From positions 1-64,000 of the forward strand of contig JAFGDD010000018.1 of NCBI GenBank assembly GCA_016932315.1: 64,000 nucleotides of DNA, written 5' to 3'. This DNA is from Candidatus Woesearchaeota archaeon. GTDB lineage: Archaea; Nanobdellota; Nanobdellia; Woesearchaeales; SM23-78. The notes under the pieces are model-generated. The model had not been told where the DNA came from. It did not search any database and saw only the letters and a program-made list of their open reading frames with translations. The translations under genes and the position numbers were made by a program. The stretch's first letter is position 1. Each line of letters starts with the position of its first letter. Positions 36,754 through 39,977 of this stretch are shown piece after piece.

Positions 36754-37617
36754 ATGGCTCAAACAAAAGGATTAGAAAATTTGGTTAATGTTCCTTGCCC
36801 TCTTGACAATGCGCACGCTCAGCTTGCTCCTGAAACAATTCAGGAGGCTCATGAGATTCAGCTTGATAGAATAAAAGATAAGAGCCTTAGGAGTGAGTGG
36901 TTCATTGTAGGCAATGGCTGTGTTTATAATATTGAGAAAGGAGAAGCTATTCTTTATTTCACCAATACTGCACTTAATCCTGTTCTTAAGCAGGAGAACA
37001 TTGCTGATGCCGTCAATCAGATTAGGAATTCTAGAAATTACAAAGTTGAAACCTATGATTTCTTATTGATACGGGGAGGGGCTGCTAAGAGGAATGGCGG
37101 AGCTAAGCGTTATGTCTTACATGATTTGAACTTGACTAAGCATGATGATGAGTGGAGCTTTTATGAGATAGATACTACAAAATATAATAAGCTAAATAAG
37201 ACTCAGAGAGCTTTTGCAGAGCAGGTTCATGGCAAAGGAAAGCAATTTGAGAAAGTAATGGATGAGATGAGCAAAGCAGGCATAACCAAAACCAGAATCT
37301 ATGTCTTAAACCCAGAATACGTTCAAAAGACTGCTAGCGATGGAGCTGTGGCGCGTGTTGGCAGGCTCAACGACTTCTACTACATTAGCTACTTCGATGC
37401 CTGCAACTGGTACATAGACAACTACATTGACCGCGTTCGTGGGGTACGTCGTGAAACAGTCGCCGAAGGCGACGACGCGACAAAACCACTGCCTTTTGAC
37501 TACAAAACAGCTTACGAAACTATTTTAGCCAACCCTGACGAAGCACTAAAAAGTTTAGACAAAAAGAAAGCAGCAGGATTACTAGACTTAGCTAACAGGT
37601 TTTACCAAAAACAGTAA
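36754..37617 (+). CDS. DGR target protein (diversified by adenine mutagenesis)
   Basis: 287 aa, no signal peptide. The variable repeat codes for residues about 199–232. Compared with the template, twelve residues differ: 207, 209, 210, 211, 213, 215, 217, 219, 220, 224, 225 and 226 (now D, Y, Y, I, Y, D, C, W, Y, Y, I, D), each explained by template adenines. The aromatic-rich region ending RVRGVR suggests the C-type-lectin-like fold of known DGR targets. Unusually, about 55 residues follow the variable region. TATA-like CTTTTATAAATG (36674–36685) and GGGGATGATAAT precede ATG 36754. Confidence 0.9.
   Translation: MAQTKGLENLVNVPCPLDNAHAQLAPETIQEAHEIQLDRIKDKSLRSEWFIVGNGCVYNIEKGEAILYFTNTALNPVLKQENIADAVNQIRNSRNYKVETYDFLLIRGGAAKRNGGAKRYVLHDLNLTKHDDEWSFYEIDTTKYNKLNKTQRAFAEQVHGKGKQFEKVMDEMSKAGITKTRIYVLNPEYVQKTASDGAVARVGRLNDFYYISYFDACNWYIDNYIDRVRGVRRETVAEGDDATKPLPFDYKTAYETILANPDEALKSLDKKKAAGLLDLANRFYQKQ
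37347..37446 (+). repeat. DGR variable repeat (VR)
   Basis: Aligned to the template repeat at +470 nt. Mismatches at 37372, 37378, 37381, 37385, 37390, 37396, 37402, 37408, 37411, 37423, 37427 and 37429, plus 37443 and 37444 at the edge. Every one is an A in the template; nine became T and the rest G. The other bases are identical. The 3' invariant stretch CCGCGTTCGTGG (37431–37442) matches the initiation-homology region of DGRs. Confidence 0.93.
37459..37473 (+). promoter_or_regulatory. hairpin downstream of VR
   Basis: GTCGCC-GAA-GGCGAC, 6-bp stem with 3-nt loop, about 18 nt after the VR and inside the target gene. Known DGRs carry a hairpin/cruciform just after the VR that raises retrohoming efficiency. 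Confidence 0.6.
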
Positions 37618-37757
37618 GCTTTATTAAACTCTTTTATCATTTTCTTTTTCGTCTCAGCACAAACTCTATTTTTTTGTTTTTTGTGGAGTGGTGTTTGGAC
37701 TACACGCCCTTTTACTACGGCAAGAAATATTCTTGTCATGAAATACAGCTGCGACAC

Positions 37758-37773
37758 ATAACTTTCGAGTTAT
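37758..37773 (+). other. TTCG-capped stem-loop before the template repeat
   Basis: ATAACT-TTCG-AGTTAT, about 45 nt upstream of the TR in the 200-nt spacer between target and RT genes. A second hairpin, CAAGAA-ATA-TTCTTG, lies near 37731–37745. Both may fold in the template RNA. No accessory (Avd-like) gene is found in this spacer. Confidence 0.4.
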
Positions 37774-37816
37774 AAGGATGAAGCAGCAGTGCTAGAAGCA
37801 GTAAAAGAGCTACAAA

Positions 37817-37916
37817 TGTGGCGCGTGTTGGCAGGCTCAACAACTTCAACAACAATAGCAACTTCAATGCCAGCAACAGGAACATAGACAACAACAATAA
37901 CCGCGTTCGTGGAATA
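37817..37916 (+). repeat. DGR template repeat (TR)
   Basis: The donor copy: rich in AAC/AAT codons (reads N-N-F-N-N-N-S-N-F-N when translated in the VR frame). It directly precedes the reverse transcriptase gene, and its reading frame is open and in phase with it. The 3' end differs from VR after GTGG, as expected for IMH*. Confidence 0.93.
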
Positions 37917-37940
37917 GCCCAAGACCCTGCTGAGACCTTT

Positions 37941-39065
37941 ATGATGAAAAAGCCAAGAGACTTATGGCAAGAGCTATGCTCGTACAAGAATCTTGAACTT
38001 GCTTGGCGCAAAGCCCGAAAGCACAAAGCCAAAAAACAATATGTTATTGATTTCGAGAAGAACCTTGCTGAAAACCTTACACTTCTAAGAACTGAATTGT
38101 TGCTTCACGCTTATAGACCTTTGCCGCTAAAGACATTCATTCTTCGTGATCCAAAAACAAGAGTCATAAGCAAATCAGATTTTCGCGATAGAGTTATTCA
38201 TCATGCTCTTTGCAACATCATCGAGCCGATATTTGACAAGGCTTTCATTTATGATTCTTATGCCAATAGAAAAGGCAAGGGAACGCTCGCAGCTATCAAG
38301 AGGTTTGAGTATTTTAAGAACAAAGCCAGCAGAAACCTCACAAAAATTGATAAAACTAAAGGTATAAAAGGCTTTGTTCTCAAGGCAGATGTGAAGCATT
38401 ACTTTGACACAGTCGATCACGAAATCCTTGTAAGGATAATCCAAAAGAAGATTAACGACAAGCGCATTATTTGGCTGATAAAAACAATTCTCTCGAATCA
38501 TAAAACTAAAACACAAGGTAAAGGAATGCCTCTTGGCAACCTGACATCTCAGTTCTTTGCTAACGTTTACCTTAATGAGCTTGATCAATACATCAAGCAC
38601 GAGCTCAAAGCTAGGCATTACATAAATTACATAAGATACGTTGATGACTTTGTCATTCTTCACCGCTCTGCAGAGCGGCTTGAATATTGCAAAGAGCAAA
38701 TCAACCGCTTCCTCAAGGATGAGCTTGCTTTGCAGCTTCACCCGGATAAATCCAAGATTCATCCTCTCTATACGGGAACTGATTTTCTCGGATTAAGAAT
38801 ATATCCTTACCACAGGCTCTTAAAGAGAAGAAACCTAAGGAAATTCAGGAAAAAACTGGAATTGATGCATTCAGAGTACAAAGTCAAGAAAGTTAAGTAT
38901 GATGCAATTTATGATTTCCTAGAAGGATGGACTGCTTATAGCAAGTATACGAACACGTTCAAACTCAGAAGAAAGCAGATTGCTCATGCAGAAAACTTAT
39001 TTGGAGGAGCTTTATCAAATAAAGAGTTGAACAGATACTTTAAACATGTTTCTCTAGTTTTCTAA
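37941..39065 (+). CDS. DGR reverse transcriptase
   Basis: 374 aa from ATG 37941. RT motifs: FVLKADVKHYFDTVDH (catalytic Asp), MPLGNLTSQFFANVYLNELD (the GNxxSQ form typical of DGR-type RTs), YIRYVDDFVIL (YxDD box) and FLGLRIYPYHRLLKRRN. No maturase, endonuclease or RNase H domain. An upstream GTG at 37818 is in frame but lies in the template repeat. Its 3' end overlaps the convergent HEPN gene by 26 nt. Confidence 0.93.
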   Translation: MMKKPRDLWQELCSYKNLELAWRKARKHKAKKQYVIDFEKNLAENLTLLRTELLLHAYRPLPLKTFILRDPKTRVISKSDFRDRVIHHALCNIIEPIFDKAFIYDSYANRKGKGTLAAIKRFEYFKNKASRNLTKIDKTKGIKGFVLKADVKHYFDTVDHEILVRIIQKKINDKRIIWLIKTILSNHKTKTQGKGMPLGNLTSQFFANVYLNELDQYIKHELKARHYINYIRYVDDFVILHRSAERLEYCKEQINRFLKDELALQLHPDKSKIHPLYTGTDFLGLRIYPYHRLLKRRNLRKFRKKLELMHSEYKVKKVKYDAIYDFLEGWTAYSKYTNTFKLRRKQIAHAENLFGGALSNKELNRYFKHVSLVF

Positions 39066-39447
39066 CCAATTCAGGAATTTCTTTTAGCGCTTCTTTCACA
39101 GTCTCTTCTTCGATTGTTTCGCCGTAGTAGTTTATGCCGTTGCGAAGCTTTCTGTACCTGTCAAACTTATTCGCTAGAACTTCTTCTTTCAAAATTTCCC
39201 TTATGAAGAAAGCTATGCATTCGTGAGTCTGGAACTTGTAGCCTTTTATGTAGCCAAGGGCGTCGCAGTATTCGCGCAAGCCTTCATAAAGTTCCCTAAA
39301 GATGCTTTTGGCAGATTCTTTTGTCAGAATTATGGTTTTTGCTGTTGCAATTGCTTGTTTAGAAGATAGAGTTATGTTTTTTGCTCGAAGAATATCAACC
39401 GGCACTTTTCTTGCATCGCCAAGTGTTATGGCTTTTTCAAAGTTCAT
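39040..39447 (-). CDS. HEPN-domain protein (HepT-like), partner of MNT protein
   Basis: 135 aa, all-helical. RKLRNGINYYGE resembles the HEPN active motif Rx4–6H, but the His position is Tyr. It overlaps the end of the upstream HTH-nucleotidyltransferase gene by 4 nt, as in HEPN/MNT toxin–antitoxin pairs. It is convergent with the RT gene, overlapping it. Confidence 0.72.
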   Translation of the reverse strand: MNFEKAITLGDARKVPVDILRAKNITLSSKQAIATAKTIILTKESAKSIFRELYEGLREYCDALGYIKGYKFQTHECIAFFIREILKEEVLANKFDRYRKLRNGINYYGETIEEETVKEALKEIPELVRKLEKHV

Positions 39448-39977
39448 ATTATTGCCTCTAGCTGCCCTGAGAGAACAATTCCGTTGCAGATGTTGTTTAT
39501 TAGTTCTTTGTTTTCCCTAATCATTTTTTTCCATTTTTCCTTTGTGAAATTGTGCAGGCTGGCTTTCCTGTTAAGTGTCTTTTCATATTTTTCTATATTC
39601 GCCTCTTTAGCTATGTTACTTATAACACAAATATCTAGATCACTATTTTTGTCGTCGTAAGCCTTGGCATAGCTTCCAAATAAGACTATGGCGGGATAAT
39701 CATATGCTTTTTCCAGCTCTTCCACGATGTTGCTCAATCTGATTTTTTCAAGATTATAATAAAGTTTGATGTTTAGGAATTTCTTTGTCATGTTCGGCTT
39801 GTAAGCAGAGTAAAGCTTTCCCTTGGTTACTTCTAATATCCCCTCGCTAACAAGCTTATTGAGCTGTTGCCTCACAGTGGTGTGGTTTATCTTAAGCATC
39901 CTTGCAAGTTCACGGATGTGATATTCTCTAGTTGGCTCTTCGAAGAATGGCTTTAAAATGGTTATTTTTGTTTCCAT
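39444..39977 (-). CDS. winged-helix plus minimal nucleotidyltransferase (MntA-like)
   Basis: 177 aa. N-terminal winged helix (YHIRELARMLKINHTTVRQQLNKLVSEGIL, residues ~18–50) and an MNT domain with GSYAKAYDDKNSDLDI (GSx10DxD). Such proteins adenylylate and silence their HEPN partner; the DNA-binding domain suggests autoregulation. Confidence 0.8.
   Translation of the reverse strand: METKITILKPFFEEPTREYHIRELARMLKINHTTVRQQLNKLVSEGILEVTKGKLYSAYKPNMTKKFLNIKLYYNLEKIRLSNIVEELEKAYDYPAIVLFGSYAKAYDDKNSDLDICVISNIAKEANIEKYEKTLNRKASLHNFTKEKWKKMIRENKELINNICNGIVLSGQLEAII

Follow-up and report, generated by a model that had tools for sequence, protein, structure and literature searches.

A diversity-generating retroelement in a Woesearchaeota-like archaeon, with a conserved RNA domain adjoining its template repeat

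Diversity-generating retroelements (DGRs) belong to the most powerful targeted diversifiers known in nature, and nano-sized archaea often carry them. What is known of the mechanism comes mainly from phage BPP-1, where both the protein Avd and a 3' spacer are required. A cassette found in the window (the whole 64,000-nt stretch of archaeal DNA analysed here) raises the question of whether it is a genuine DGR, and how its template could be used in the absence of an Avd gene. The initial annotation of the window had described a complete DGR in an archaeal chromosome, with target gene, VR, TR and reverse transcriptase (RT) lying in that order on one strand. The arrangement was recovered on the + strand, and the features of the cassette are as follows.

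36754..37617, + strand: DGR target gene, encoding a 287-aa variable protein (putatively AvpA-like); its VR is internal, and the C-terminal tail measures ~55 aa
37347..37442, + strand: VR (variable repeat), from the VR/TR comparison
37440..37445, + strand: IMH, TGGGGT, a motif already described in nanoarchaeal DGRs (PMC4372165)
37459..37473, + strand: hairpin GTCGCC-GAA-GGCGAC, 3' of the VR and within the target gene, with a 6-bp stem and a GAA loop
37817..37912, + strand: TR (template repeat), from the VR/TR comparison
37910..37915, + strand: IMH*, TGGAAT, at the 3' end of the TR
37941..39065, + strand: DGR reverse transcriptase, 374 aa, with YVDD and the LGNLTSQ motif (RVT_1, 6e-25; phrog_1423, 1e-116)

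The VR (37347-37446) and the TR (37817-37916) could be aligned without gaps at a spacing of 470 nt, and they form the sole repeat pair of its kind within the window. The alignment contains 14 differences in 100 nt, all of which fall at TR adenines (36 of the 100 TR positions are A; hypergeometric P = 8.6e-8). Of these differences, the 12 internal ones alter 12 codons and 12 amino acids of one protein segment, in agreement with the initial annotation, and none is at another base. That annotation had also counted 14 differences including the edge; these are indeed all at adenines, but the last two (A>G at 37913-37914) are a fixed IMH*/IMH difference and not the result of mutagenesis. They are common to nearly all relatives, and VR GGGGT stands opposite TR GGAAT in 37 of 40 scorable loci. 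Among related loci (n = 56), 779 VR/TR differences were found at A sites vs 12 at other bases. The TR has 19 variable codons, corresponding to ~5.6e18 protein variants, and a stop is possible at none of them. At one related locus (L057, genome G198), a single TR is accompanied by three VRs, which are up to 4 kb distant.

The RT was compared with solved structures, and the nearest was the BPP-1 enzyme bRT (8ub7, 2e-45), whereas the best group II RT reached only 3.5e-22. In the RT tree (70 rows), the enzyme fell within a DPANN clade (support 96/96), which was placed on the DGR side and was split from the group II intron RTs with support of 100/100. It could still be argued that the enzyme belongs to a group II intron or a retron and that the repeat pair arose by chance, since the best NCBIfam match is a group II RT/maturase model (TIGR04416), though its score of 167 bits is below the cut-off of 300. 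This can be practically disregarded given the tree, which excludes a group II grouping, the nearest solved structure, the TR/VR statistics, and the same arrangement in dozens of relatives. The RT start is most likely at 37941, because the ORF from 37818 runs through the TR. RT relatives were detected in 90 of 353 genomes of the order; only distant DGR RTs were found in viral contigs. About a quarter of the related RTs (L066, L072, L080, L085, L101, L108 and others) have a C-terminal extension of ~210 aa with a helix-turn-helix-like stretch, and in most of these the TR-RNA unit lies on the opposite strand.

The genome (1.34 Mb in 28 contigs, 91% complete) provides an archaeal and chromosomal context, and the neighbours of the cassette include Nre and an archaeal-type NucS. 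The element meets the criteria for a DGR in its adenine-only TR/VR pair, its DGR-clade RT, its IMH/IMH* and the hairpin 3' of the VR. It was therefore confirmed, as far as sequence data allow, as an element of an already known kind in the chromosome of a Woesearchaeota-like DPANN archaeon. DGRs had been said to occur in DPANN genomes, and nanoarchaeal DGRs with the same IMH pair have indeed been reported (PMC4372165). A second complete DGR, which the initial annotation did not include, is present on contig 13 of the same genome (G000; L005 7632-10909, - strand); it has an unrelated target N-terminus, its own TR/VR and its own RNA (74.6 bits). A winged-helix nucleotidyltransferase gene (MNT), mostly with a HEPN-like gene, lies within ~0.5 kb of the RT at 6 of ~80 loci, vs ~0.5 expected from genome frequency. 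These are the window (39040-39977, - strand), L005 (7632-8603), L077, L073, L115 and L091. The HEPN-MNT genes are adjacent to both DGRs of this genome, but this low frequency among the relatives led us to reject them as a DGR component.

The target protein had not been recognised in the initial annotation, and this is partly upheld: no significant family was found in Pfam, NCBIfam, PADLOC or PHROGs, and no match in the viral contigs searched. However, members of its family occur in 48 of 353 genomes of the order, and a profile of 24 aligned relatives gave a weak in-register match to AvpA (5ioo, E = 0.07), covering the VR end and the tail. AvpA also has an internal VR, together with a 46-residue extension (PMC5006420). 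A single-sequence structure model was too poor for comparison (pLDDT 43). A C-type-lectin fold, in which the VR would lie on the binding face, is a likely assignment for this AvpA-like target, although no usable structure model supports the prediction. The hairpin GTCGCC-GAA-GGCGAC codes for a conserved VAEGD that follows the VR. A hairpin of this type within 70 nt of the VR was found in 40 of 60 relatives vs 12% of shuffles, and the GAA loop in the window agrees with the GRA triloop described for nanoarchaeal DGRs (PMC4372165). In three genomes (G169, G180 and G184), five or six members of the target family are present, only some of them near an RT; the others may be remote VR targets.

The nanoarchaeal (DUSEL4) DGRs and AvpA (PMC4372165, PMC5006420) are among the closest parallels to the cassette. 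They share with it the target-TR-RT order, the TGGGGT/TGGAAT pair, the GRA-loop hairpin in the target gene, an internal VR followed by a helical tail, and the occurrence of several DGRs per genome (two here). The ORFs between target and RT were marked Avd-like in those papers by size and pI only, whereas the window and its relatives carry a conserved structured RNA in the target-RT interval and no detectable Avd. An Avd-like ORF at this place, as drawn in PMC4372165, was considered and rejected: the interval has no conserved ORF and is occupied by the RNA. This structured template RNA between target and TR was likewise absent from the initial annotation. Its 5' part comprises the following features.

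37652..37818, + strand: Rfam RT-16 RNA match (RF03019), 75.0 bits against a gathering cut-off of 50, ending at the TR edge
37695..37816, + strand: template-RNA 5' domain, model R1, 102.6 bits, supported by covariation
37706-37716/37800-37810, + strand: R1 helix P1, covariation
37719-37724/37732-37737, + strand: R1 helix P2, covariation
37748-37752/37783-37787, + strand: R1 helix P3, covariation

The R1 covariance model was built on an alignment of 35 relatives and contains 24 pairs, of which 20 show double-sided compensatory changes. The cells were paired in 95.1% of cases vs 77% in shuffles (0 of 500 as high) and at most 57% in slid controls; many G-U pairs are tolerated in P1-P3. Within the order, R1 matched 79 of 82 RT loci (35 of these had served to build it), and genomes sampled across the phylum contained further members of the same class. 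For the named loci outside the order, the only R1 matches were DPANN records and one weak CPR match, and the covariance model search found no R1 in BPP-1, ANMV-1 or Moritella. The Rfam families RT-16 and RT-11 (RF03106, 45 bits here) represent the same RNA domain, and the RT-16 model stops at the TR edge; the link to the TR, the helices P0 and PT (below), the RNA ends and the promoter are added in the present analysis.

In most loci the RNA and the RT share a strand, with the RNA upstream, and the Rfam family is named after its RT neighbour, so it might be read as a leader or regulator of the RT mRNA that is not part of the template RNA. We give this very little weight. In most loci with an identified VR/TR pair, no more than ~8 nt separate the 3' end of the RNA from the start of the TR, and 13 loci with the RT on the opposite strand contradict a leader: the RT is up to 6 kb away, and the RNA is still within ~5 nt of the TR in most of them. 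The RNA thus travels with the TR even when the RT is inverted, and is therefore assigned to the template rather than to the mRNA of the RT. Two further helices, which pair the RNA with sequence 3' of the TR, also speak against a leader. They are listed below with the putative promoter.

37694..37702, + strand: P0 5' strand (TTTGGACTA), just 5' of the RNA domain
37915..37923, + strand: P0 3' strand (TAGCCCAAG), at the TR 3' edge
37651..37659, + strand: PT 5' strand (GTCTCAGCA), where the template RNA is predicted to begin
37928..37936, + strand: PT 3' strand (TGCTGAGAC), with a short U tract after it; the template RNA is predicted to end here
37621..37629, + strand: TATA-like box (TTTATTAAA), ~26-28 nt upstream of the predicted template-RNA start

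The mean duplex score of P0 over 58 loci was 19.3, vs 14.1 (sd 0.43) for permuted partners, and none of 2000 permutations was as high. Its central pair is U-A in 48 loci and C-G in 10, with no mismatches, and at least seven U-A/C-G switches were inferred on the RT tree. The corresponding PT score was 23.7 vs 18.8 (sd 0.43; 0 of 2000). A hold-out set comprised 40 loci from other orders, none of them used for the model. The TR adjoins the RNA in 30 of the 40, and in the 28 that were testable for the helices, P0 scored 21.0 vs 14.1 and PT 22.7 vs 18.9 (each 0 of 2000). The permutation tests do not fully remove relatedness and shared composition, which inflate the pairing scores. The z values were 14.6 for PT and 9.5 for P0, compared with 4.6 for one decoy pairing. 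A local 5' hairpin of the Rfam model is a competitor of P0 and PT; its support (z 6.1) is weaker than that of either helix, and it and P0/PT may be alternative folds. In the minimum-energy fold of the window RNA, PT and P1-P3 are present and P0 is missing. Comparative evidence was used because folding energies were not decisive, either for the RNA (z = -2.0) or for the VR-hairpin region as a whole (z = -0.5, not unusual).

DGRs use DNA hairpins downstream of the VR, and P0 and PT might accordingly act at the level of DNA instead of RNA, for instance as homing cruciforms or as the arms of a mobile unit. This is very unlikely: P0 and PT flank the TR rather than the VR, and P1-P3 tolerate many G-U pairs. 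Moreover, the segment is delimited like a transcript, by a TATA box at -28 and a U tract. TATA-like hexamers in the relatives peak at -28/-29 from the PT 5' strand; the frequency at -28 was 50% where the RT is on the same strand and 100% where it is on the opposite strand, vs 1-2% elsewhere. A T-rich stretch follows the PT 3' strand. The simplest reading is that the template RNA is a dedicated transcript of ~290 nt (~37651-37940), a prediction for which no expression data are available.

A single VR state is known, from one genome, and the VR/TR pattern could in principle be a fossil of a decayed or silent DGR. We consider a dead cassette quite unlikely. The RT is intact with its catalytic YVDD, the TR contains no stop-capable codon, and no non-A differences were found; the IMH, IMH*, hairpin, promoter and all RNA helices are likewise intact.

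Avd was searched with a profile based on three known Avd proteins, followed by one iteration. The first-pass profile matched none of 122 archaeal loci; after one iteration, Avd was detected at 92 of 105 bacterial or viral DGR loci. The iterated profile also gave two Avd-like ORFs at archaeal loci, of which one is convincing (L049) and one marginal. The L049 ORF is on the - strand near position 23, ~5 kb or more from its RT. No match to PF05635 was found in the window's genome (91% complete), and the cassette contains no Avd. Avd is encoded by most but not all known DGRs (PMC10053308), so its absence does not exclude membership. An ordinary Avd-dependent archaeal DGR, with Avd encoded elsewhere and the RNA acting together with it, is unlikely but should be kept in mind: ~9% of the genome is missing, and L049 illustrates a distant Avd-like ORF. 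It is opposed by the absence of PF05635 from the assembly and by the contrast in adjacent Avd genes (0 of 122 first-pass archaeal loci vs 92 of 105 bacterial or viral loci). Comparison among the relatives thus establishes, as predicted features, the RNA domain, P0, PT, the promoter and the absence of Avd from the cassettes.

The BPP-1 element shares with the cassette the RT family, the A-specific TR/VR pair, the IMH, the post-VR hairpin and a structured RNA beside the TR (PMC12875486). In BPP-1, however, the structured RNA (Rfam Phage_DGR) is 3' of the TR and avd is 5' of it, whereas in the window the structure is 5' of the TR and Avd is absent. The Phage_DGR model had no match in the window region, and in the BPP-1 control it matched 3' of the TR. 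The BPP-1 3' spacer is described as the structure responsible for recruiting bRT-Avd and for priming the cDNA at IMH* (PMC12875486). The DGR of the archaeal virus ANMV-1 has an archaeal-associated RT that is 43% identical; however, it lacks the R1 RNA, and its RT groups (weakly, 81/32) with an Avd-bearing RT and not with the DPANN clade.

Taken together, our preferred reading is a DPANN-type DGR in which the 5' domain is proposed to replace Avd and the 3' spacer. The RT would copy the TR out of the dedicated ~290-nt template RNA (~37651-37940) with misincorporation at adenines. P0, which by the comparative evidence connects the 5' domain (P1-P3) with the 3' edge of the TR right at IMH*, is inferred to be the RNA-RNA duplex where cDNA synthesis starts. 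The 5' domain is inferred to recruit the RT, in place of Avd and a BPP-1-type 3' spacer, and the RT may stop at or near this domain after copying the TR. The cDNA would then replace the VR of the AvpA-like binding protein up to the IMH. The VR hardly ever receives the two As adjoining P0, as expected if the cDNA starts just 5' of P0. We regard this reading as probable; its activity, RNA ends and priming are without expression, read or biochemical data. A more specific version is only tentative, and we would put it somewhat below an even chance: DPANN DGRs might have swapped Avd and the 3' spacer for an RNA domain 5' of the TR, P0 would fold this domain onto IMH*, with the cDNA being primed at GGAA|U by an adenosine of the invariant CYACA (CTACA in the window, 37700-37704). 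Priming at this position would be the reason why the AA of IMH* is so rarely transferred.

The template RNA architecture looks like a distinct variant, and no description of it was found in the literature examined; its novelty was not fully checked, and a prior description is possible. An Avd-less template RNA with predicted ends and a predicted initiation duplex would offer small constructs for testing how archaeal DGR mutagenesis is started and bounded, and a function is proposed for an Rfam family whose name reflects nothing but the neighbouring RT. R1 may also serve as a search model that locates TRs even in loci with an inverted RT or a distant VR. The template-RNA domain was further observed on contigs without an RT match, i.e. 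G167:C7, C25 and C36; G293:C161 and C274; G239:C5 and C64; and G331:C26. These copies are possibly trans-acting or orphan TR units, or they might reflect contig breaks.
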